Assembly: GCA_030065025.1 (NCBI GenBank)
Contig: JASJDY010000004.1
Coordinates: 1 to 39,188 of the forward strand
Direction: 5' to 3'
DNA length: 39,188 bases
From: Planctomycetota bacterium
GTDB lineage: Bacteria; Planctomycetota; PLA2; JAEUHO01
Shown here one piece after another: positions 13,321 through 35,453 of the stretch (its first letter is position 1; every line of letters begins with the position of its first letter). Made by a program: the position numbers and the translations under genes. Below the pieces are notes generated by a model that saw only the letters and a list, made by a program, of their open reading frames with translations, ran no database searches and was not told where the DNA came from.

Positions 13321-13324
<4 letters not shown>

Positions 13325-13620
13325 GGGCGGCCCAAGGACGCGCGCAGCGCGGACGCAGGCCCGCCAGCCGAGTCTCCGGCAACCCAACGCCGGGCGTCTC
13401 GCCCGTAGGGGCGGCCCAAGGACGCGCGCAGCGCGGACGCAGGCCCGCCCGCCGAGTCTCCGGCAACCCAACGCCGGGCGTCTCGCCCGTAGGGGCGGCC
13501 CAAGGACGCGCGTAGCGCGGACGCAGGCCCGCCCGCCGAGTCTCCGGCAACCCAACGCCGGGCGTCTCGCCCATAGGGCGGCCCAAGGACGCGCGCAGCG
13601 CGGACGCAGGCCCGCCCGTG
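13321..13620. repeat. 84-bp tandem repeat, 3 full units plus a partial fourth
   Basis: Units start at 13321, 13405, 13489, 13573: GTAGGGGCGGCCCAAGGACGCGCGCAGCGCGGACGCAGGCCCGCC... Confidence 0.95.
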
Positions 13621-13640
13621 ACGAGCGATATACGGCCCTC

Positions 13641-13697
13641 GACGGGCGGGCGTTCGCCGGCACCCCAAAGGGGTGCCGCCTCCGGCCGCCCCTACAG
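13641..13697 (-). repeat. Copy of TAGGGGCGG hairpin repeat (inverted relative to the tandem array)
   Basis: GACGGGCGGGCGTTCGCCGGCACCCCAAAGGGGTGCCGCCTCCGGCCGCCCCTACAG. Confidence 0.85.
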
Positions 13698-13721
13698 CCG
13701 CTTAGAAATGCCGCCCTCCCC

Positions 13722-13775
13722 TTGACGGACCCGCCAGCGTCTTCTACGAATGTAGTAGGACACCTGTCGTAGACC
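13722..13775 (+). promoter_or_regulatory. Promoter with BlaI-like operator
   Basis: TTGACG-N17-TACGAA; CTACGAATGTAG / TGTAGTA palindrome plus downstream TGTCGTAGA half-site. Confidence 0.55.
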
Positions 13776-13791
13776 GTTGGGAGGGACACCC

Positions 13792-14190
13792 ATGGCGCGA
13801 GCCCAGCCGCTCAGCGACCTGCAGATCGCCATCCTGCGCGTGCTCTGGGATCGCGGGGAAGCCACCGTCGCCCAGGTCCAGGCCGCCCTCCAAGCCGAGC
13901 GCGGCCTCGCCCACACGACCGTCGCCACCCTCCTCTCACGCCTCGCCGCACGCGGCGTCGTCGCTCGCCGCAGCGAAGGCCGCCAGCACGTCTACCGCGC
14001 GACCGTCGAGGAGCAGGACGTCAAACGCTCCATGGTCTCCGCGCTCACCGAACGCCTCTTCGCCGGCGATCCCTCCGCCCTCGTGCACCACCTGATCGAC
14101 GAAGGCGAGATCGACGCCGACGAGCTCACGCGCCTGCGCAAGCTGCTCGCCAAGAAGCGAGCGAAGAAGGGAGGACGCCGTGCCCGCTGA
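13792..14190 (+). CDS. BlaI/MecI/CopY-family transcriptional repressor
   Basis: LSDLQIAILRVLWDRGEATVAQVQAALQAERGLAHTTVATLLSRLAARGVVARR. Confidence 0.9.
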   Translation: MARAQPLSDLQIAILRVLWDRGEATVAQVQAALQAERGLAHTTVATLLSRLAARGVVARRSEGRQHVYRATVEEQDVKRSMVSALTERLFAGDPSALVHHLIDEGEIDADELTRLRKLLAKKRAKKGGRRAR

Positions 14191-15487
14191 CGTCCTCGGA
14201 CCGTGGCTGCTGACCTACCTGCTGCACAGCACGCTGCTGCTGGCGAGCACGTGGGCCGCCGTACGCCTGTGGCGCACCATGCCGGTAGCGCTTCAGGAGA
14301 CGCTCTGGCGCACGGCACTCTTCGGCGGCCTGCTCACCGCGAGCCTCCAGGTCGCCATCGGCTGGGAGCCGTGGAGCGGGCACCTCACCGTGCCGTCGCT
14401 GAGTGAAGCGGAGGCTTCGCTCGTGCCCGCCGTCGAGCCTGCCATCACTGCCGTGGAACCGATCGTCGAGCCGCTGCCGCACATTGACACGCCGCTGCTC
14501 GCGACGCCTCCGACGACGACGGTATCCGCCCCGACACGCGCGCTGGAAGCAGGCACGGTCCTGGCCCTCACCTGGCTCGCCGTGCTCGTGCTCTTTGCGC
14601 TACGCGCCGTTCGTGCACGCCGCACCCTGCGCCGGCGACTCGCATCGCGCGTGCCCGTGCAAGGCGCAGCCCTCCGGGACGCACTGAATGCCTTGCTCGC
14701 GCGGTCACGCTTCAGGCGCCGCGTGCGCCTGACCGAGTCCGCCGACCTCGGCAGCCCGGTCGCGTTCGGGGTCCTCCGGCCCGAGATCGTGGTGCCGACG
14801 CGCGCAGTCGGTGAGCTGAGCGCCGGACAGCTCGAGGCCATGCTCGCTCACGAGCTCGCCCACCACGTGCGCCGCGATCCGCTCTGGTTCGCCGTCACGC
14901 GCGCGGTCACGACGCTGCTCTTCTTCCAGCCGCTGCACCTCGTCGCGCAGCGCCGCCTCAGGGAGACCAGCGAGCTGCTGTGCGACGCCTGGGCCGCGGA
15001 CACGACCGGCCGCGGCGAGGCCCTGGCGGAGTGCCTGGCCGTCGTGGCTGGCTGGATGATCCGCCATGCCAAGCCGCTGGCCGTGCCCGCCATGGCGGCT
15101 CGCGGCCGCATGCTCGAGCGCCGCGTTGCTGTGCTGCTCGAAGGCACGGCCCCAAGCCGGCGCGCGCGGCTCCTCGCCGGCCTTGCCCTCGTGCCGCTCG
15201 CGCTGGTCATCCTGTTCGCGCCGGCCGTGGCAGCCCCCACAGCCGCCCTGCCCGAGCCCGACGCGGAGACGGCCCCCGCCCCGGACTCCGGCGACGAGCT
15301 GGCCGACCTCGACCGCGAACTGACTGCGCTGCGCGACGACCTCACGCGCCTCATGTCGCTCGTGCAGCAACTCCCCGATCCTCCCGACGCGCTACGCCAT
15401 GGCGTATCGCGTCTGGCAGCCCGCCTGAAGACCCTGGAAGTACGACGCGTCGCCCTGCTCCGCGACGCGCAGGAGATGAAGCGATGA
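14180..15487 (+). CDS. M56 (BlaR1-like) membrane metallopeptidase
   Basis: LEAMLAHELAHHVRRDPLW (HExxH), ETSELLCDAWAAD; overlaps the blaI-like gene. Confidence 0.88.
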   Translation: MPADVLGPWLLTYLLHSTLLLASTWAAVRLWRTMPVALQETLWRTALFGGLLTASLQVAIGWEPWSGHLTVPSLSEAEASLVPAVEPAITAVEPIVEPLPHIDTPLLATPPTTTVSAPTRALEAGTVLALTWLAVLVLFALRAVRARRTLRRRLASRVPVQGAALRDALNALLARSRFRRRVRLTESADLGSPVAFGVLRPEIVVPTRAVGELSAGQLEAMLAHELAHHVRRDPLWFAVTRAVTTLLFFQPLHLVAQRRLRETSELLCDAWAADTTGRGEALAECLAVVAGWMIRHAKPLAVPAMAARGRMLERRVAVLLEGTAPSRRARLLAGLALVPLALVILFAPAVAAPTAALPEPDAETAPAPDSGDELADLDRELTALRDDLTRLMSLVQQLPDPPDALRHGVSRLAARLKTLEVRRVALLRDAQEMKR

Positions 15488-16701
15488 AGACCCCTGCCCT
15501 GTGGACCGCACTCGCCCTCGCGCTGCTGCTCGCCCTGCCCGCGACCGGCTACGCCGACGACGAGAAGCACCTCGACCTGACGTACCACCAGACGCCCGTG
15601 CGCAAGGCGATCACGGACATCGCCAACAAAGCGAAGGCCAACGTGATCATGCATCCGGACGTGAAGGGCGAGGTCACGCTCATGCTGCGCGGCGTCCCGT
15701 GGCGCGATGCGCTCGACGCCGTGGCCAAGGCGACGGGCAACGTCGTCAAGGAGGAGGACTTCGGCATCCTGCGCGTCCTGCCCGGCAAGAAGCGCGCCGG
15801 CGATCCGTTGGCGAGCATGATGGCCGAGCGCAGCGTGAAGGAGCTCGCGGCGGCGCGACTGCGGATGGCCGAGCTCGAGGCCAAGCTCGCGCGTGCGCGC
15901 GCCGACGGCGACGCAGGCCGCGCGGACGTGCAGCGCATCGAGGACGAGCTGGCGCGCCTGCGCCCGGGTCTCGACCGGGCCCGGCGCGCGCTGGAAGAGG
16001 CTGCAGCGCTGCGTGCGCGCGTGGCGGAACGCAAGCTCGCGAAGCCTTCGAAGCAGACGGTGACGGTCTACGACGTGGCCGACCTCGGCAAGGGCCCCAA
16101 GGCGGTCGAGCGCATCGCTGGGGAGCTGAAGCGGCATGGCCTGAAGGTCGAGCGCAACGGCAACCAGCTGATCATCGTCACGACACCGGAGGGGCACAAG
16201 CGCGTCCAGGCTCTCCTCGAGAGCAAGCGCCGGGACCAGCCGTACAACGTCGGCAAGCCCTACGTCACCACGAAGAAGGAGTCCGTTCGCTACCGCGTGA
16301 AGCTCGGTCCCGACGGCAAGGTCCTGAAGCGCGAGAAGGTCTACGAGACGCCGATCGACAAGCTGCCCCTGCCCGGCAACATCGAGGGCATGAAGCAGCG
16401 CAAGCGCATCGCCGACCTGACGGCGGCGATGAAGCTGCTCGAGTCAGCCGGCGACATGGAGGGGGCCGCCCGCCTGAAGAAGCACATCGTCGAGGCCAAG
16501 GCCAAGTACGCCGAGCTGGCCCGCCGCAAGGCCGAAGCCGATCGCCTGCGGAGCGCCCGCACCTACCACGGGCCGTACCAGAAGGACGGTGACCTGCGCG
16601 GCGCGGTGAAGGCGCTGCATGCCGACGTGCGTGCCCTGCGCGGCGAGGTGCGTGAGCTGTCAAGCCTGGTGAAGCGGCTGCTCGAGCAGCGCCGCCGCTG
16701 A
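15484..16701 (+). CDS. Secreted STN (secretin/TonB short N-terminal)-like domain protein with coiled coil
   Basis: Signal peptide; LDLTYHQTPVRKAITDIANKAKANVIMHPDVKGEVTLMLRGVPWRDALDAVAKATG; ATGA overlap with M56 gene. Confidence 0.75.
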   Translation: MKTPALWTALALALLLALPATGYADDEKHLDLTYHQTPVRKAITDIANKAKANVIMHPDVKGEVTLMLRGVPWRDALDAVAKATGNVVKEEDFGILRVLPGKKRAGDPLASMMAERSVKELAAARLRMAELEAKLARARADGDAGRADVQRIEDELARLRPGLDRARRALEEAAALRARVAERKLAKPSKQTVTVYDVADLGKGPKAVERIAGELKRHGLKVERNGNQLIIVTTPEGHKRVQALLESKRRDQPYNVGKPYVTTKKESVRYRVKLGPDGKVLKREKVYETPIDKLPLPGNIEGMKQRKRIADLTAAMKLLESAGDMEGAARLKKHIVEAKAKYAELARRKAEADRLRSARTYHGPYQKDGDLRGAVKALHADVRALRGEVRELSSLVKRLLEQRRR

Positions 16702-18045
16702 TCAGCGGCCGGCTCGGGGCGTGCGCTCGTCGGGTGGCATGTCGTAGGTCACCCGCGTCTTCGTCAAGACGTCCGAGAGCGTGCGCCCACGCGCAACGTA
16801 GAAGCTGACCACGCCCGCGAGGATGGCGAGGATCGCCACGACGTGCATGATGTCGCCGAGGAGCGGCAGGAAGAACGGGATCGCCGTCGCCCAGGCGAAC
16901 ACGCCGGGGAATCGCACGAAGTTCCGTGCGATGAGCGCGCGCCGCGATGGCTCGGCGCCCTCCGCGGTTCTCACGCGTAAGTGCAGGAACCACTTGCCCA
17001 GCGTCAGTCCGTAGCGCAGCTCGGGCAACACGGCGCTGCCGAGGAAGAAGTACGCGAGGAAGAGGACCTCGAACTCCTCGCTGAGCGGATTCCCGTCCGC
17101 GAGCCGGATGGCGAAGGCGACCACGCTCAGGGCGACCGCGGCAGCGAACCAGTCGATGACCGTGGCGACCGCGCGCGCCATGATCGGCGCCGGGTGCACG
17201 GCGCGCGGCCGGCAGCCCTCGAGCATCCGCACGACCTCGTGCATCGACTCCGGGCGATCCTCGGGCCTCTTCGCGCACATCTTGCGCAGGATGCGATCGA
17301 GCGAGTCGGGCAGGTCCGGCCGCGCCGCGACGATCGACGGCAGCGGCGTGTTGATCTGGTCGTGCAGCACGTCGCCGAGGCTGGGGCCGGGATACGGCGG
17401 CTTCCCGACGAGAAGGGCCCATGCCGTGAGGCCGAGGCAGTAGATGTCGGTGCGGGCGTCGACGCGGCGGCTGCGGCACTGCTCGGGACTCATGTACGTC
17501 GGCGTGCCGATCATCCCGTGCTCGTGACTGATGCTCACCTCGGCATCGATGGACTTGGACAGTCCGAAGTCGGTGATCTTGATCGTGCCGTCCTCGCGTA
17601 CGAGGACGTTCGACGGCTTCACGTCGCGGTGAACGATGCCCGCCTCGTGCGCGGCCGCCAGTCCGGAGGCCGCTTGGACCAGCCAGTCGATCGCGTCGTG
17701 GAGATCCGGCGTGCCGTGCTCCTCGACGTACTCGTCGAGGCTCTGGCCGCGGACGAACTCCATCGCGAAGAAGCGGTAGCTGCCGTCGCCGCCGACGTAG
17801 TAGACGTGCGTCAGGTTGGGGTGGCTCACGCGCGCCGCCGCGCGGGCCTCCTGGAAAAAGCGGTCCACCCGCATGGTGGCCCCGGACACGGCGGGCCTGA
17901 GCACCTTGACGGCGACCTTGCGGTCGAGGCCCTCGTCGTGCGCGCGGTAGACGGTACCCATGGCGCCCTCCCCCACCGGCTCCTCGAGACGGTAGTGCGC
18001 GAGCATCGAGCCCGGCGGCAGGGTGGGTGTGGCGGTCTGGGGCAC
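16702..18045 (-). CDS. Ser/Thr protein kinase fused to C-terminal RDD membrane domain
   Basis: YRLEEPVGEGAMGTVYRAHDEG, GIVHRDVKPSNVLV, ITDFGLSK; AVATVIDWFAAAVAL...YGLTLGKWFLHLRVRT; GTG 18045 preferred over 18285, which reads through a repeat. Confidence 0.85.
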   Translation of the reverse strand: MPQTATPTLPPGSMLAHYRLEEPVGEGAMGTVYRAHDEGLDRKVAVKVLRPAVSGATMRVDRFFQEARAAARVSHPNLTHVYYVGGDGSYRFFAMEFVRGQSLDEYVEEHGTPDLHDAIDWLVQAASGLAAAHEAGIVHRDVKPSNVLVREDGTIKITDFGLSKSIDAEVSISHEHGMIGTPTYMSPEQCRSRRVDARTDIYCLGLTAWALLVGKPPYPGPSLGDVLHDQINTPLPSIVAARPDLPDSLDRILRKMCAKRPEDRPESMHEVVRMLEGCRPRAVHPAPIMARAVATVIDWFAAAVALSVVAFAIRLADGNPLSEEFEVLFLAYFFLGSAVLPELRYGLTLGKWFLHLRVRTAEGAEPSRRALIARNFVRFPGVFAWATAIPFFLPLLGDIMHVVAILAILAGVVSFYVARGRTLSDVLTKTRVTYDMPPDERTPRAGR

Positions 18046-18134
18046 GAGTCGGGAGCATACCGCCGATGGGCCTGCAGGCGTGGCGGTGGTCGTGACCGTG
18101 GGCGTGAGGTGCGATCGGGCGTCGCCAGAATCCA

Positions 18135-18257
18135 GTAGGGGCGGCCGGAGCCCGCCCGAAGGGCCGTCGAACGCCCGCCCGTCAAGTGCAAGTGCATGTG
18201 CAGGTGCAAGTGCAGGTGCGCGTGGCCGTGGGCGTGGGCGTGGGCGTGGGCGTGGTG
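18135..18257. repeat. TAGGGGCGG hairpin repeat plus 12-unit period-6 array
   Basis: 18135-18183 aligns to 13641-13697; hexamers (GTGCAA/GTGCAG/GTGGGC) 18186-18257. Confidence 0.85.
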
Positions 18258-18274
18258 GAGGTACCATCCCCCCC

Positions 18275-18931
18275 GTGGATCCCAAGCTCCTCTCCCGTTA
18301 CCAGAGCTCCTCCGGCGCCGCCGCCTACCGGCGGAAGTACGAGCGTTCCTGGATCCGCCGCCTCTCCAACCGGCGGGAGCTGTCCATCGTGGACAAGGCT
18401 CTCGAGCGCGCGGGCACCCACGGCCGGGTCCTCGACTGCCCCTGCGGCGCGGGGCGCCTCACGCCGACGATCCTCCGGCACGCCGAGAAGGTGGTCTGCG
18501 CCGACATCAGCGCACCCATGGTGGCCGAGGCGCGCGAGGCCCTCGCCCCCTTCGAGCAGGCCGGTGTGGTCTCGTTCGCCGTGGCGCCCGCCAGCGAGCT
18601 GCCCATGGAGGACGACACCTTCGACACCGCCGTCTGCCACCGGCTCATCCATCACATGGCCGAAGCCGAGGAGCGCGCGGGCGTGCTCGCCGAGATGGCC
18701 CGCGTCGCCTCGCGGCGAGTCGTCATCTCGTTCAGCGACGACAGTACGTGGAAGGGTCGCAGCCAACGCCGGCGCGGCGTCCACCGGCGCCGCTCGGCGC
18801 TCATGCCCGACGATCTGATGGCCGAGGCCGCGCCTCACGGGCTGAAGCCCTTGGGCAAGCCCCTGCGACTGAACGGCTTCCACTCCCTCGTTGCGATTGC
18901 CGTCTTCGAGGTTGGACAGAGCACCTCGTGA
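18275..18931 (+). CDS. Class I SAM-dependent methyltransferase
   Basis: VLDCPCGAGRLTPTILRHAEKVVCADISAPMVAEAREAL. Confidence 0.85.
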   Translation: MDPKLLSRYQSSSGAAAYRRKYERSWIRRLSNRRELSIVDKALERAGTHGRVLDCPCGAGRLTPTILRHAEKVVCADISAPMVAEAREALAPFEQAGVVSFAVAPASELPMEDDTFDTAVCHRLIHHMAEAEERAGVLAEMARVASRRVVISFSDDSTWKGRSQRRRGVHRRRSALMPDDLMAEAAPHGLKPLGKPLRLNGFHSLVAIAVFEVGQSTS

Positions 18932-19770
18932 GTGAGACCTGGTGGATCGCGCCCGACGCGCGGCAGCGCTTGGAGCGCCACGCTCCCCTCGACGTAGCCG
19001 CCTGGATGCAGCACGGGGACGATCGCGTCGTGCTCTCCACCGATCGGCAGTCGGCCGCCGTTCGCTGGCAGGGTGACGAGTCCCTGCTCGTGAAGTGGCG
19101 GGCGACGCTGCCCGGGCGCCGGCGCCGCACCTGGATGCGCGCCTCGCGCGAGCGCAAGGAAGCCCGCGCGCTACGCCGCGCGGCGACGCTCGGCATCGCC
19201 ACGCCGCAGGTGCTGGGCGTGGCCGAGCGCCGTGAGCGGGGCTTCCTGCTCGGATCCGTCGTCGTGCGCCCCTATGACGAACAGGCTGAGAGCGCGGCGG
19301 ACGCCGCGCGGCGGGATCCCAACCTCGTGCTCCTCCTGGCGGGCGCGTTGCGGGGGTGGCACGACGCGGGCTTCCGCCACGGTGACTGCTACCCCAAGAA
19401 CATGCTCGTGGGCGGCGCTGCCGGAGAGCCGCGACCCATCGGATGTCCGATGGCGACCTTCGTCCGAGCCGGACCGCAGCTCGATCGCGCGCGTCTCAAG
19501 GATCTGGGGCAGTTCACGGCCGGCTGCGCAGCGCTGGAGCCGTGGGGCGATCCGTTCACCTTCCTCATGGCCTACGGCGAGGAGCCGGGGCTGCCGCCGT
19601 ACGACGAGCTCATGGAGGCCGTCACGCCGTTCTACGAGCGGGTGATGGAGCGCAAGGCCGAGCGGGAGCGGACGCGACCCGAGCGCGAGCCGGATGGCCC
19701 GCCGCAGCCGAAGCCGTTGGGGGTTGGGGGCCCTCCGAAGGTGCGCGTTCGAGGTCTCGGAAGGCTGTAG
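18928..19770 (+). CDS. Lipopolysaccharide kinase (WaaP/Kdo kinase)-like protein
   Basis: FRHGDCYPKNMLVGG catalytic-type motif; GTGA overlap with methyltransferase. Confidence 0.65.
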   Translation: MSETWWIAPDARQRLERHAPLDVAAWMQHGDDRVVLSTDRQSAAVRWQGDESLLVKWRATLPGRRRRTWMRASRERKEARALRRAATLGIATPQVLGVAERRERGFLLGSVVVRPYDEQAESAADAARRDPNLVLLLAGALRGWHDAGFRHGDCYPKNMLVGGAAGEPRPIGCPMATFVRAGPQLDRARLKDLGQFTAGCAALEPWGDPFTFLMAYGEEPGLPPYDELMEAVTPFYERVMERKAERERTRPEREPDGPPQPKPLGVGGPPKVRVRGLGRL

Positions 19771-19954
19771 GGGCGGGGAGGATTGGAAGGAGGGGCGCGC
19801 AGCTCCTCCTTGCCGCGCCGAAGGCGCGTCCAGTCCGCGCGGGAGCGCGGAATCGACCTCGTGAGGTTGCCCGCCCGTTCGAGTGCACGTGCAAGTGCAA
19901 GTGGAAGTGGAAGTGGAAGTGGAAGTGGAAGTGGAAGTGGAAGTGGAGGTGTGC
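19765..19954. repeat. TAGGGGCGG repeat plus 12-unit period-6 array
   Basis: CTGTAGGGGCGG at 19765 ... TTGCCCGCCCGTTC to 19880; GTGCAx/GTGGAA hexamers 19883-19954 (GTGGAA x7). Confidence 0.85.
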
Positions 19955-19961
19955 AGGACGG

Positions 19962-21917
19962 TCAGTCGATCTGCACGATCCACCAGCGGCCGTCGATGGC
20001 CTGCATGCGGTACGTGTGCCCGCCATACGCCGGCAACGTCCTGAGCGACACCGAGCCGTCCGTGTTCGCCGTCTCCTCCGACGTCATGAACATCTGGAAC
20101 AACAGGTCGTCGCAGTCCGCCTCCGTGCGGTTCTTGCTCATCTTCACGAACACGTCGATCCAGTCCTCGCGGATCTTCGCTTCCGGCGTGCCCTGCGCGT
20201 AGCGGCCCTGCGCGATCGCCTGCTTGACCATCGACGGCCAGTGGAACGCGTCCGCCAGCAGATCCCTGCGCGGGAGGTGGTAGCCGCGGCCGAACTTCAC
20301 GAACGCCTGCCGCCAGCTCGTGGGGCTGCCGTCGACGGCGTCGTACCAGTCCGCGCGCCCAGTCGGACTACTCGCGGTCCTGGGTGCGAAGTCGACCTTG
20401 GGCATGAGGCCCCTGACCTCGAGCAGCCGGCGGTCGTCGGGCCGCAGCACGACCTCGAAGCTCCAGCCATCACGGCGCGCGCAACGCGCGACGAGGCCCT
20501 CCTTCACGCGCTCGACGTGCACATGCGTGTCCGAGCGACTCAACGTGAACGTACCGGTGCCAGCCTTGGGCTTCTGCGCGAAGCGCGGGTCCCAGCCGGG
20601 CAGCACGTAGTCGCTCAGGTGATCCGGCGCCTGACGCAGGAACAGCAGCACCGGCAGCACACCGGTGATCGCGCCTTCCGGGGCGCCGAGCAGCACGGGC
20701 TGCTGGGGGCCTTTCTTCGTGTGGGCGATCGTCTCGATGCCGCCGGGCTTGCGCCTGTATGTCACGTGGAACGTGCCCTCGGGGCGCTTGTCGATGCGTT
20801 CGCCCTTGAGCACGGTCAGGTCCTGCGCGAGGAAGCCCGAGACCTCGTGCTCGATGACCGCCTCCCCCACCTTGACCGTCTGGGACTCGAGCACACGCCA
20901 TGCAGGCGCGCCGCCGACGCTGGCAGGCTCCGCGACGAGCATCACGGTGCCCACGGAGATGCCGGCGTGCTTCACCTCGCCGAGGAAGCGGAAGGGTCGC
21001 CGGGGGAGCCCGAGCTTCTTGCGCAGGCTGCGTGTGCGGTGGATCGCCAGCTCGATGGGCGTCGCGAGGCCCTGCATCTTGGGTTGGGCCAGCCCGCCGG
21101 CGGCGTGTCCCTCTTGCACGATCTGGATGCCCAGCCCGACGTACACGACGCCGAGCAACGCCCGCGTCTTCGGGTGGAACGCGAGCCGCAAGGTCTGCTT
21201 GCCGCGCGTGACACTGGCGATCCACGCCTCGACGAGTTCGTCGCCGTCGTTCCAATTCGCCAGGCCGTGGACCTCGACGCGCGCGTCGAGCGCGTACGGA
21301 TCGCCGCCCGACGGGTCGGGGTCGAAGTCACGCAGCCGGTACACGGCCTTCGCGGCAGGGACGTGCCGGAGGAACGTGACGCTGCCGGCGAGCGTGGCGA
21401 TGCCCTTCCGCGTCTCCACGTCGAGGCGGTTCTCGTAGTAGTCCGCCTCGTGCTCCATGGCGTAGCCGTCCTCTGCCGCCGTGAAGCGCGCGCGGAGGAA
21501 GCCGCGCGTGTTGCGTCGGTGGAAGCTGCCGGAGACGGCGCCCAAACGCCGATCGAGGACGGCCGTCTGGAGGACGGTGAAGTCCTGGGGCTTCAGCGGC
21601 TTGATCTCGTCGCGGACCACCCAGTGGCCCTCGCGCTCACCGTGCGGCCGAGCGCTCAGCGAGACGGTTCCGTACGGCCGACCGCCCCGCAGGACGTGTC
21701 CCCGGAACTCCCACGCGTGCTCCGCCGACGGCGCGGGCATCGTTTCGAGAATGGATTGAGTGGACTCACCGGCCTGGGCCGGGGTCCCCAGAAGCAGCAC
21801 GACGAGGAGGAAGGCTGTAGGGGCGGCCGGAAGCGGCGCGCAGCGGCGCTGAACGCCCGCCCGTCCGAGTGCAGGTGCAAGTGCAGGTGCAGGTGTGTGC
21901 GCGCGCGACGCGCGCAC
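19962..21917 (-). CDS. Secreted hypothetical protein, two internal copies of a beta-rich domain; N-terminus runs through a repeat
   Basis: AFLLVVLLLGTPAQA-GES signal; MPAPSAEHAWEFRGHVLRGGRPYGTVSLSARP; paralogous to next gene. Confidence 0.7.
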   Translation of the reverse strand: MRASRAHTPAPALAPALGRAGVQRRCAPLPAAPTAFLLVVLLLGTPAQAGESTQSILETMPAPSAEHAWEFRGHVLRGGRPYGTVSLSARPHGEREGHWVVRDEIKPLKPQDFTVLQTAVLDRRLGAVSGSFHRRNTRGFLRARFTAAEDGYAMEHEADYYENRLDVETRKGIATLAGSVTFLRHVPAAKAVYRLRDFDPDPSGGDPYALDARVEVHGLANWNDGDELVEAWIASVTRGKQTLRLAFHPKTRALLGVVYVGLGIQIVQEGHAAGGLAQPKMQGLATPIELAIHRTRSLRKKLGLPRRPFRFLGEVKHAGISVGTVMLVAEPASVGGAPAWRVLESQTVKVGEAVIEHEVSGFLAQDLTVLKGERIDKRPEGTFHVTYRRKPGGIETIAHTKKGPQQPVLLGAPEGAITGVLPVLLFLRQAPDHLSDYVLPGWDPRFAQKPKAGTGTFTLSRSDTHVHVERVKEGLVARCARRDGWSFEVVLRPDDRRLLEVRGLMPKVDFAPRTASSPTGRADWYDAVDGSPTSWRQAFVKFGRGYHLPRRDLLADAFHWPSMVKQAIAQGRYAQGTPEAKIREDWIDVFVKMSKNRTEADCDDLLFQMFMTSEETANTDGSVSLRTLPAYGGHTYRMQAIDGRWWIVQID

Positions 21918-21922
21918 CCCTA
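21815..21922. repeat. TAGGGGCGG hairpin repeat plus period-6 array, closed by inverted CCCCTA terminus
   Basis: CTGTAGGGGCGGCCGG...ACGCCCGCCCGTCC-(GTGCAR)n-GTGCGCGCGCGACGCGCGCACCCCTA. Confidence 0.85.
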
Positions 21923-23344: not shown

Positions 23345-26113
23345 ATGGCCGCTCGCAAGAAGACCTCCGCCCGCAAGGCCAAGAACGGCAAGCAGCTCGT
23401 GATCGTCGAGTCGCCCGCCAAGGCGAAGACGATCGGGAAGTTCCTGGGCTCCGACTACGAGGTGCAGGCCTCGATCGGCCACGTCCGCGACCTGCCCTCG
23501 ACGCGCAGCGAGCTCACGGACAAGCAGCGCGAGAACAAGTACAGCGCGCTGGGCGTGGACCTCGAGGACGACTTCCGGCCGATGTACGTCATCCCGCCGG
23601 GCAAGCGGGAGCAGATCCGCAACCTCAAGGCGGCCCTCAAGGACGCCCCGGCGCTGTGGCTGGCGACCGATGAGGACCGCGAGGGCGAGTCCATCTCGTG
23701 GCACCTGCTCGAGGTACTCAAGCCCAAGGTCCCCGTCCACCGGCTCGTCTTCCACGAGATCACGAACCGCGCCATCAAGCAGGCCCTGGATACCCCGCGC
23801 GAGATCGACGCCAACCTCGTACGGGCGCAGGAGAGCCGGCGCATCCTCGACCGCCTCTTCGGCTACGAGGTCTCGCCGGTCCTGTGGCGCAAGATCCGCC
23901 CCAAGCTCTCGGCCGGCCGCGTGCAGAGCGTCGCGCTGCGGCTGCTCGTCGAGCGCGAGATGGAGCGCATCGCGTTCGAGCCGAGCGAGTGGTGGGACAT
24001 CGATGCCCTGTTCGCGACGCGCGGTGACGAGGCCGCGCCCTTCGAGGCGCTGCTGCGCCGCCTGGGCGACCAGCCCGTGGCCGCGAGCGGCGACTTCGAC
24101 CGCACCACGGGCAAGCTCGCCAAAGACAACGTGCGCGTGCTCGGCGAGAAGGACGCCCACGCCCTGGCCGAGCGCCTCGCCGGCAAGACGGCCGTCGTCC
24201 AGGACGTCGAGGAGAAGGAGTTCAAGGAGCGCCCTGCGCCGCCCTTCACCACGAGCACGCTGCAGCAGGAGGCCGGCCGCAAGCTGCGCTACTCCTCGCG
24301 GCGCGCGATGAGCCTCGCCCAGCAGCTCTACGAGAACGGGCTCATCACCTACATGCGCACCGACTCCACCGCGCTGTCGACACAGGCGGTGGATGCGGCA
24401 CGGGGTCTGATCGGGGAGCGCTACGGCGCCGCCTACCTGCCCGAGTCGCCGCGGACCTACAAGACGAAGGTCAAGAACGCCCAGGAGGCCCACGAGGCGA
24501 TCCGCCCCGCCGGCTCGCGCTTCGCCTCGATCGACGAGGTGCGCGCCTCGCAAGGCGCCGATGCAGCCCGCCTCTACGAGCTCATCTGGAAGCGCACCGT
24601 CGCTTCGCAGATGACCGACGCCCGCGGCAAGCGCGTCGTGGTCCGCGTCGCCGTCGACGATGCCCTCTTCCGCGCGTCGGGCAAGACCATCGAGTTCCCC
24701 GGCTTCCGCCGCGCCTACGTCGAGGGCTCCGACGATCCCGCCGCCGAGCTGGCCGAGCAGGAGTCGCTGCTCCCGCCCCTGACGCCCGGCCAGGAGCTGG
24801 ACGTCCGCCAGCTCGAGCCGAAGGGCCACACGACGCAGCCGCCCGCGCGCTATACCGAGGCCAGCATCGTCAAGGCGCTGGACCAGCGCGGCATCGGCCG
24901 TCCGAGCACGTGGGCGAGCATCATCCAGGTACTGCTCGACCGCGAGTACGCCTTCCGCAAGGGCGGGCGCACGCTGGTACCCAGCTTCACGGCCTTCGCC
25001 GTGGTGCGCATGCTCAAGGAGAGCTTCGGTCGCCTGCTGTCCTACGACTTCACGGCCAGCATGGAAGACGACCTCGACGCGATCTCGCGCGGCGAGATGG
25101 ACCGCATCGAGTACCTCAAGCGCTTCTACAGCGGCAACGGCCACCCGGGCCTGCACCAGCTCGTGCAGAAGGGCCTCGACACGATCGACCCGCGCGAGGT
25201 CTGCAGCTTCCCGCTCGGCGAGGCGGGCGGCCGCACGATCGAGGTGCGCGTCGGCAAGTACGGCCTGTTTGTCTCCGACGGCGAGCAGAACGCGTCGCTG
25301 CGCGAGGACATCGTGCCCGACGAGCTCACCGCGGAAGCCGCGCTCGAGATGATCGAGGTGGCGGCGCGCGGTCCGCAAGCGCTCGGCAACTGTCCCGAAA
25401 CGGGCAAGCCGGTCTATGCGAAGTCCGGTCGCTTCGGTCCCTATGTGCAGCTCGGCGATCCGGTCGAGGGCAGCAAGGAGAAGCCGAAGATGGTCAGCCT
25501 GCTCGAGGGCATGAGCCTCGAGACGATGGACCTCGCGACGGCCTTGCGCCTCCTCGAGCTGCCGCGCGACCTCGGCGAGCATCCCGAGGACGAAGAGAAG
25601 AAGCACGTCTTCGCGCACCTCGGACGCTACGGCCCCTACGTGAAGTGGGGCACGGAGTCGCGCTCGATCCCCGCCGAGATCAACCTGCTCGACATCGAGC
25701 TCGCCGCGGCCGTCGCGCTGCTCAAGGCACCGCGCCGGCGTCGCGGTCAGCGGGCGCCCGCCGCCCCGCTCAAGGAGCTCGGCGAGCACCCCGTCTCCGG
25801 TGAGCCGCTCAAGATCCTCGACGGCCGCTGGGGTCCCTACGTCACCGACGGCACCGTCAACGCGAGCCTGCCCAAGTCCGTCCCGCCCGATGAGCTGACC
25901 ATCAACGAGGCGGTCGAGCTGCTCGCCCGCCGCGCCGAGCGGATGGCCGCCAAGAAGGGCGCACGGAGGAAGGGCGGCCGCAAGAAGGCCGCCAAGAAGA
26001 AGGCCGCGAAGAAGAAGACGGCTCGCAAGAAGGCGGCCAAGAAGAAGGCCGTCAAGAAGGCCGCCGCGAAGAAGAAGGCGGCCCCCAAGCCCTCCGACGA
26101 GGCCTCCAACTAG
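23345..26113 (+). CDS. topA: DNA topoisomerase I with C-terminal repeats and Lys/Ala-rich tail
   Basis: LVIVESPAKAKTIGKFLGSDYEVQASIGHVRDLP, RTDSTALS, GRFGPYVQLGD repeats, KKAAKKKAAKKKTARKK tail. Confidence 0.97.
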   Translation: MAARKKTSARKAKNGKQLVIVESPAKAKTIGKFLGSDYEVQASIGHVRDLPSTRSELTDKQRENKYSALGVDLEDDFRPMYVIPPGKREQIRNLKAALKDAPALWLATDEDREGESISWHLLEVLKPKVPVHRLVFHEITNRAIKQALDTPREIDANLVRAQESRRILDRLFGYEVSPVLWRKIRPKLSAGRVQSVALRLLVEREMERIAFEPSEWWDIDALFATRGDEAAPFEALLRRLGDQPVAASGDFDRTTGKLAKDNVRVLGEKDAHALAERLAGKTAVVQDVEEKEFKERPAPPFTTSTLQQEAGRKLRYSSRRAMSLAQQLYENGLITYMRTDSTALSTQAVDAARGLIGERYGAAYLPESPRTYKTKVKNAQEAHEAIRPAGSRFASIDEVRASQGADAARLYELIWKRTVASQMTDARGKRVVVRVAVDDALFRASGKTIEFPGFRRAYVEGSDDPAAELAEQESLLPPLTPGQELDVRQLEPKGHTTQPPARYTEASIVKALDQRGIGRPSTWASIIQVLLDREYAFRKGGRTLVPSFTAFAVVRMLKESFGRLLSYDFTASMEDDLDAISRGEMDRIEYLKRFYSGNGHPGLHQLVQKGLDTIDPREVCSFPLGEAGGRTIEVRVGKYGLFVSDGEQNASLREDIVPDELTAEAALEMIEVAARGPQALGNCPETGKPVYAKSGRFGPYVQLGDPVEGSKEKPKMVSLLEGMSLETMDLATALRLLELPRDLGEHPEDEEKKHVFAHLGRYGPYVKWGTESRSIPAEINLLDIELAAAVALLKAPRRRRGQRAPAAPLKELGEHPVSGEPLKILDGRWGPYVTDGTVNASLPKSVPPDELTINEAVELLARRAERMAAKKGARRKGGRKKAAKKKAAKKKTARKKAAKKKAVKKAAAKKKAAPKPSDEASN

Positions 26114-34472: not shown

Positions 34473-35396
34473 GTGAGCGCCACCGACCTGCCCCCCACCG
34501 ACGATGACGCCGTCCTCCACGCGGAGGCGACTCTGGACCTGCTGCGCATGGCGCTGGCCGAGGACCACGCCGTGGACGACGTGACCACCGCGGCCCTCGT
34601 GGATCCCGAGCGCACGGCGCTGGCCGAGATGATCGTGAAGGCCACCGGTGTCGTCTGCGGCCTGCCGCTCATCGCGCGGCTCTTCACGCTGCTTGACGAG
34701 CGCATGGAGGTGGAGCTGCTAGCGGACGACGGCGACACGATCGGGGCAGGCACGATGGTCGCGCGCGTGCGCGGGCCGGCGGGCGCGCTGCTGCGCGGCG
34801 AGCGCACGATCCTGAACGTCGTGCAGCGACTGAGCGGCGTGGCGACGCAGACGGCCGCGTACGTCGAGGCGGCGCTGGGCGGCGCGGGTCTGTACGACAC
34901 CCGCAAGACGACGCCCGGCTGGCGCGACCTCGAGAAGTACGCCGTGCGCTGCGGGGGCGGACGCAACCATCGCCTGCACCTCGCCGACGCCGCGATGGTC
35001 AAGGAGAACCACCTCGTGGCGGCGTACGGCGAGCGCGGTCCGGAGGCGATCGCGCGTGCCGTGCGCACGCTGCTCGACGGCATCGATCCCGGCCTGGCGC
35101 TCTACGTCGAGGTCGAGGACGACGCGGAGCTCGAGGCAGCGCTGACCGCCGCTGGTCCTGACATCGGCCGGCTCGTGATCATGCTCGACGACTTCGAGAT
35201 CGAGGGCATCCGCGGCGCCGTGCGGCGCGTTCGCGAGCTCGAGGGCCCGCGCCCCCAGCTCGAGGTGACGGGCGGCGTCACCTTGGAGCGCCTCGAGGGC
35301 CTGGCCGGAACGGGCGTCGCCCGCCTGTCCTCCGGCGCGCTGACGCACAGCGCCCCGGCGCTCGACATCAGCCTGAAAATCCGAAGCGCTACGTAG
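34473..35396 (+). CDS. nadC: Nicotinate-nucleotide pyrophosphorylase (carboxylating)
   Basis: ALAEDHAVDDVTT, GERTILNVVQRLSGVATQTAAYV, LYDTRKTTPGWRDLEKYAVRCGGGRNHRLHLADAAMVKENH. Confidence 0.96.
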   Translation: MSATDLPPTDDDAVLHAEATLDLLRMALAEDHAVDDVTTAALVDPERTALAEMIVKATGVVCGLPLIARLFTLLDERMEVELLADDGDTIGAGTMVARVRGPAGALLRGERTILNVVQRLSGVATQTAAYVEAALGGAGLYDTRKTTPGWRDLEKYAVRCGGGRNHRLHLADAAMVKENHLVAAYGERGPEAIARAVRTLLDGIDPGLALYVEVEDDAELEAALTAAGPDIGRLVIMLDDFEIEGIRGAVRRVRELEGPRPQLEVTGGVTLERLEGLAGTGVARLSSGALTHSAPALDISLKIRSAT

Positions 35397-35453
35397 GGGC
35401 CACGGGAGGCCTGAGCTTGTCGAAGGCCGAGTCTTGGCCCGGCCCGTCCGCTG
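35394..35453. repeat. Candidate TAGGGG-type repeat containing CCTGAGCTTGTCGAAGG motif
   Basis: TAGGGGCCACGGGAGGCCTGAGCTTGTCGAAGGCC...GCCCGGCCCGTCCG; GGCCT...AGGCC ends at 35408-35428. Confidence 0.6.

Follow-up and report, generated by a model that had tools for sequence, protein, structure and literature searches.

GTAG-tagged REPs form a superfamily linked to RAYTs, and it includes REPs whose loops have a self-complementary inner part, which reaches 27 bp in Bradyrhizobium GTAG-14 (Di Nocera 2013, PMC3733652). REPs of a hairpin-bulge-hairpin form are already known as well (PMC6006769). In vitro, E. coli TnpA-REP depends on three parts of the REP, namely GTAG, bulge and lower stem; complementing the upper stem or loop is tolerated, and this part plays a non-specific structural role, although binding is lost when it is removed (PMC8266576). 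In the group 3 REPs of S. maltophilia, the first base of the three-nucleotide loop is an essential G, and the other two bases are not selected (PMC8266576). Characterised TnpA-REPs have CT as their cleavage dinucleotide (PMC8266576). In the open-access literature, we found no description of REP tips that are hypervariable from copy to copy, or of GNA and tandem GA signatures; a search that combined GNA loops and REPs gave nothing relevant.

The elements described here belong to the GTAG-type REPs and are built in an unusual way, in two tiers, with GTAG, a foot stem, a conserved internal loop and a hypervariable apical hairpin. The DNA hairpins number well over a hundred in the genome, and they have probably been spread by a single-strand transposase that is encoded between two of the copies.

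Copies in the window and in the genome

The window, that is, the whole stretch of 39,188 nucleotides that was analysed, is contig C29 of a Planctomycetota genome (G000; 3.9 Mb in 285 contigs, 88.97% complete). Three frame-A elements lie at 13644..13695 (minus strand), 18135..18180 (plus strand) and 21817..21862 (plus strand). The first-pass annotation had described shared ends around different central hairpins, and in these three copies the claim is exact: GTAGGGGCGGCCGGA...GAACGCCCGCCC is identical in all of them while the interiors differ, with GTAGGGGCGGCCGGA...GAACGCCCGCCCG as the ends around differing apical hairpins. Read on the GTAG strand, these hairpins are GGCACCCC-TTT-GGGGTGCC, GCCCGCCC-GAA-GGGCCGTC and AGCGGCGC-GCA-GCGGCGCT, the last two with a GNA loop. 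The element at 18135..18180, which lies between divergently oriented kinase and methyltransferase genes, has an outer tip that pairs poorly.

Other assignments had to be revised. The tandem array of four 84-bp units at 13321..13619 (plus strand; unit starts at 13321, 13405, 13489 and 13573, the fourth unit carrying ATAGGGCGG), previously thought to have the same boundaries, carries in each unit, as read from the sequence, a two-tier GTAG element of a sibling frame, frame C (CCCAAG...GCAGGC). The stretch at 19765-19880, previously taken for a longer diverged copy, is a separate multi-hairpin GTAG element of the H type (19767..19878, plus strand), which shares the outer ends GTAGGGGCGG and GCCCGCCCGT and has a conserved interior of about 90 nt, with near relatives in its own genome and in the congeneric genomes G002 and G004. 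A further element, GTAGGGGCCACGGGA...GAGTCTTGGCCC at 35393..35440 (plus strand), had been missed; it belongs to frame K and has the foot GGGCCA/TGGCCC. The kinase gene upstream of the array stops at the TAG of the array's first GTAG (13322-13324), the Kdo-kinase-like gene at that of the H-type element (19768-19770), and the ORF upstream of the frame-K element at that of this element (35394-35396).

The 5' end GTAGGGGCGGC occurs exactly six times in the window, compared with 0.01 expected, whereas the 3' end GCCCGCCCGT alone, with 19 occurrences and 15 expected in this GC-rich window, is not above chance. The significance rests on the pairing of the two ends: the 3' frame is found within 110 nt of 49 of the 51 untruncated exact 5' frames, and the 5' frame upstream of 50 of the 54 exact 3' frames. 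Earlier, room had been left for the shared ends being random GC-rich background with no further copies in the genome. This does not hold, since the 12-mer GTAGGGGCGGCC occurs exactly 184 times in the 3.9 Mb (its reversed control 8 times), and 83 of 87 elements are intergenic in a sequence of which the simple, purpose-written codon-bias gene caller that we used assigns 90% to genes.

Statistics on the family come from 592 kb, namely 40 loci, the window and locus L032, all picked because they hold copies. This sample yielded 88 complete elements, which fall into 12 frame types, among them frame A (49 elements), C, I, K and others. All 88 have GTAG followed by GGGC and a matching 3' foot, so that GTAG stands directly 5' of the hairpin foot, as in GTAG-REPs. 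The foot covaries among frames (GGGCGG/CCGCCC, GGGCCA/TGGCCC, GGGCGACC/GGTCGCCC, GGGCAGCC/GGCTGCCC), and frame A is near-invariant, with 53 exact 15-mers and 9 with one mismatch. The long elements mostly measure 42-60 nt, and some reach 84 nt, which is above the usual 20-40 bp (PMC3733652) and mostly inside the range of 21-65 nt (PMC6006769). A check for REPIN or BIME arrangements gave 25 neighbour pairs at distances of at most 250 nt (10 with GTAG outside, 7 with GTAG inside, 8 in tandem); most elements have no such neighbour.

Fold and variability of the apical hairpin

Folded as DNA, the GTAG strand of frame A forms six foot pairs, a C.C mismatch, two further pairs, an asymmetric loop and the apical hairpin. 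The copy at 18135 folds otherwise. The standard DNA energy model does not make every copy more stable than shuffled sequences (z of 0.2 for the copy at 18135). Compensatory changes in the stems, which the first-pass annotation had proposed to test for, were found in a gap-free alignment of frames A, I and K, with 46 columns and 21 distinct elements. Standard pairs fill 89.3% of the pair cells, compared with 70.7% after shuffling and at most 44% with slid partners, a score that is somewhat favoured by the tested structure having been taken from family members. Double-sided changes number 57, as against 18 in shuffles. Shared ancestry among tips inflates the counts given here and below to some extent, even though exact duplicates were removed beforehand.

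The 88 elements carry 80 distinct tips, with modal lengths of 19, 21, 23, 30 and 36 nt. Tip energies in the DNA model are modest (median z of -1.6), probably as a result of its penalty on tandem GA, and we relied instead on counts of pairs with re-dealt halves. In the 49 tips of odd length, 344 of 416 symmetric positions are Watson-Crick, as compared with 201 (maximum 237) when right halves are re-dealt among tips of equal length, and at most tip positions three or four Watson-Crick types are used. Of the 49 symmetric tips, read on the GTAG strand, 37 have GNA at their centre (N being G in 15, C in 10, A in 8 and T in 4) and 2 have the complementary TNC, which assigns the feature to the GTAG strand. 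Tandem 5'-GA/3'-AG mismatches occur 19 times, with 1.3 in shuffles. In DNA, loops of the GNA type and tandem GA mismatches adopt compact, sheared pairing. GNA is also enriched in three congeneric genomes, with 10 of 16 tips in G004 (0.4 expected), 8 of 37 in G002 (0.8) and 3 of 13 in G001 (0.2).

The candidate transposase and the proposed mode of spread

The window holds no transposase, in agreement with the first-pass annotation, and the likely cognate enzyme of the elements lies on another contig. A 171-residue Y1_Tnp ORF (PF01797) on contig C102 (L032:1082-1597) is flanked by inverted frame-A copies at 1073 (minus) and 1594 (plus), the GTAG of the right-hand copy containing the stop codon of the ORF. 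The protein has the motifs NHVH (HuH), WQ and YIHRNP, with the C-terminal tyrosine in a YIxxNP context. It scores over the cut-off of PF01797, matches NCBIfam NF047646 (REP-associated tyrosine transposase) with E of 7.2e-17 and 61.6 bits, under the curated 80-bit cut-off, and weakly matches TnpA-REP (PDB 4er8). A second Y1-like ORF (contig C59, L265) has no flanking GTAG repeats and a long C-terminal extension, and probably belongs to another class. The congeneric genomes G001, G002 and G004 have RAYT matches with E below 1e-38, and all three have two-tier elements; in G003 and G005 the matches are all distant, and CTGTAGGGGC is nearly absent. Within the genus, a good RAYT match thus goes with two-tier elements, which is only suggestive with six genomes. 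In a scan of named genomes, RAYTs were found in many phyla, and the GTAG repeats recognised around the matches are mostly short single-tier REPs.

The earlier suggestion of a MITE/REP-like element stands in its REP-like part, given an imperfect hairpin with GTAG at its foot, the many extragenic copies, and copies on both sides of an intact RAYT gene. A MITE in the strict sense, with the terminal inverted repeats of an autonomous DDE transposon and a target-site duplication, seems a poor fit. The ends of the elements pair as a hairpin foot, with GTAG on one side only, and a conserved sequence common to both flanks was not found.

We consider it likely that the elements are single-stranded DNA substrates which are mobilised by the RAYT and read by their GTAG, foot and internal loop, with the tip contributing shape only. 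According to this model, the RAYT/TnpA-REP nuclease of the same genome would mobilise the REPs in trans as single-stranded DNA. The GTAG strand would adopt a two-tier hairpin, with GTAG, the foot stem GGGCNN/NNGCCC, a pyrimidine mismatch and two base pairs, above which an asymmetric internal loop (GA opposite GA or GAA) would lead into the apical hairpin. Recognition by the enzyme would rest on the GTAG, as a guide to the CT cleavage site, and on the foot and internal loop. Of the apical hairpin, the shape alone would be needed, a stable stem that in most cases ends in a compact GNA loop, so that its letters would be free to change, and tips would diversify by substitution with compensation and by exchange between copies. 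We infer this route of diversification, as well as the cleavage and movement of the elements by the RAYT and the non-canonical geometry of the G.A pairs. The excess of CT directly before GTAG is consistent with cleavage by the cognate RAYT. Against mobilisation by the RAYT speak the NCBIfam score below cut-off, the element length above the usual range, the copies that are no more stable than shuffles in the energy model, and the number of frames, at least 12, that would all fall to a single flanked RAYT.

The placement of the elements would also suit a function as RNA, in transcription termination or in the protection of mRNA 3' ends, with spread being incidental. Gene 3' ends are strongly preferred, elements occupying 25 of 80 convergent gaps and 3 of 85 divergent ones, and GTAG provides the stop codon for 11 called genes. 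However, the GTAG strand is sense in 56 cases and antisense in 58 relative to the gene that ends at the element, without orientation bias, and GNA and tandem GA are confined to this strand, which makes selection on RNA of one orientation unlikely. No T-run, as intrinsic terminators would have, was found downstream of the elements, and an Rfam scan of the window returned a tRNA alone, with no family matching the elements. In view of the balanced orientation, the lack of T-runs and the silence of Rfam, a strand-specific RNA role is the weaker reading, and we regard retention for an RNA function as improbable; the strand-specific GNA and tandem GA suggest that selection acts on single-stranded DNA and not on RNA. 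It is very improbable that the elements are immobile palindromes, fixed between genes and multiplied through segmental duplication or slippage. Local duplication is evident in the 84-bp array and in one duplicated pair (L063), but the elements occupy many loci with differing flanks, copies flank the RAYT, and CT-GTAG junctions recur: CT directly precedes GTAG in 40 of 84 cases (4.4 expected, a roughly nine-fold excess) and CC in 18 of 84 (10.3 expected). Moreover, four gaps of the window were compared in sister species, where the orthologous gaps contain either no GTAG element or other types, and G005 has none in any of the four. The kinase-BlaI gap, for example, is occupied by frames C and A in this genome; in the same gap, G004 has four short REPs, G002 has two elements of frame K plus a related one, and G005 has no element. 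Empty sites in relatives, which the first-pass annotation had proposed to look for, are present at the level of gaps that align only via their genes; they support a lineage-specific gain of elements, with junctions that are not readable to the base without close strains.

Rivals of another kind concern the tips. Apical hairpins could be exchangeable cassettes, swapped or newly acquired through RAYT mobilisation or recombination instead of drifting base by base, a refinement of the mobilisation model that we hold only tentatively and consider rather unlikely. Frames are near-invariant, while tips of equal length have a median identity of 0.47. The same 23-nt tip is found in frames A and B, the same 28-nt tip in B and J, and a 36-nt tip with two differences in A and D, which bears out the earlier notion of a modular element. 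One frame is chimeric (L078:4888, with the 5' side of A and the 3' side of B), and some tips are nested, hairpin in hairpin (L032:1073, L089:2191, L100:710). These long identical tips, the chimera and the nested tips suggest that tips and frames have recombined at least sometimes. On the other hand, most tips are unique, those of equal length differ chiefly by paired changes, as under compensated drift, and the identical tips could stem from a change of frame around a kept tip or from a common tip consensus. Tips of the type CTGAG...CGAAG were considered as an independent REP inserted into frames, a candidate that was rejected as its clear examples outside the extracted elements are mostly in degenerate or truncated frames. 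Going further, RAYT-driven mobilisation or the repair of extruded hairpins might actively diversify the REP apex, rewriting or swapping the terminal hairpin while the foot, the internal loop and a GNA loop are kept. We think this doubtful; if true, the REPs would be mobile single-strand elements whose ends stay constant and whose structured tips can be exchanged.

The mobilisation of these REPs by the RAYT, which we favour, bears on how RAYTs recognise REPs and on whether REPs still move. A single genome with dozens of natural copies that keep their base and differ in their tips amounts to a selection experiment in vivo, in which the variation separates the parts that are read as sequence (GTAG, foot, internal loop) from the part needed as shape only (the tip with its GNA loop).

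Comparison with known systems

Short GTAGGGGC palindromes that flank RAYTs in many phyla, and also in the same genus, share with the present elements the GTAGGGGC foot, compensatory foot changes and the position of the RAYT between copies, but they have a fixed loop of 3-8 nt and no second tier. Integron attC sites are recombination sites, too, that act as folded single strands and combine conserved ends with a terminal structure that varies, and the elements resemble them in each of these respects. They are not attC sites, as the frame ends have no R'/R'' boxes (GTTRRRY / RYYYAAC) and the linked enzyme is a Y1 HuH protein, not a tyrosine recombinase.

With GTAG-3 (the E. coli type) and GTAG-14, the elements have in common the GTAG at one end, the foot stem, the self-complementary inner part of the loop, the link of the superfamily to RAYTs and the extragenic location, and with GTAG-3 also the unpaired residues between stem and loop (PMC3733652). 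Unlike in either, the inner hairpin differs in nearly every copy, the GTAG strand shows a C-GNA-G triloop and tandem GA mismatches, at least 12 frames occur in one genome with one flanked RAYT, and the elements are longer. The three-nucleotide loop recalls the Stenotrophomonas group 3 REPs, and the Pseudomonas REPs at L220 and L236 have the same CCGNAGG tip, but both are single-tier palindromes with constant stems. As in the E. coli REP/TnpA-REP REPtron (PMC8266576; PDB 4er8), a long hairpin is broken by a bulge; in E. coli, REPs of one type have a fairly conserved upper part, whereas here it is hypervariable among copies. The natural variation in this genome follows the logic of the in vitro data from E. 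coli and S. maltophilia, and agrees with them.

Stop codons and hexanucleotide arrays at the elements

The TAG within GTAG serves as stop codon for the gene upstream at 13322-13324, 19768-19770 and 35394-35396 of the window and at L032:1595-1597, the locus of the candidate RAYT ORF. Among the 88 complete elements extracted from 592 kb of copy-bearing contigs, 11 called genes end in this way. This overlap may reflect target choice, or the replacement of an old stop codon on insertion.

Hexanucleotide arrays (CAAGTG/CAGGTG, GTGGAA) lie near the GTAG elements, mostly on their 3' side. In the same 592 kb, 9 of 11 arrays lie no more than 200 nt from an extracted element, and one further array follows the long multi-hairpin element at 19767. 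Arrays are found at 18183-18255, 19884-19951 and 21866-21895 of the window, and outside it at loci L065, L068, L069, L098 and L100.

Separately, the long ORF at 23345-26113 of the window carries lysine-rich tandem repeats of GGCCGCAAGAAGGC-type at its C-terminal end (25945-26083).

Other GTAG repeats and a second Y1-like ORF

The multi-hairpin GTAG repeat at 19767-19878 of the window is a separate type with a conserved core, GGATTGGAAGGAGGGGC, which has 7 matches in G000 (this genome), 12 in G002 and 10 in G004, and none in G001, G003 and G005. Further loci are L271, L274, L266, L275, L273, L279 and L282.

Gaps that hold two-tier elements in G000 hold clusters of short single-tier GTAG REPs in sister species (L258:1278-1456 and L258:7645-7823 in G004; L035:2041-2482 in G002). 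The G002 RAYT has the same gene neighbourhood, adjoining an nth-like gene, and is flanked by such short REPs.

G000 also encodes a second TnpA-Y1-like ORF of 333 aa with a C-terminal extension (L265, G000:C59:5851-6258), around which no GTAG repeats were found.

Tips of Pseudomonas REPs

The CCGNAGG tips of Pseudomonas REPs (L220, L231, L236) carry GAA, GCA and GGA, and obey the same GNA rule for the central trinucleotide as the G000 elements. This rule may hold more generally in certain RAYT groups.
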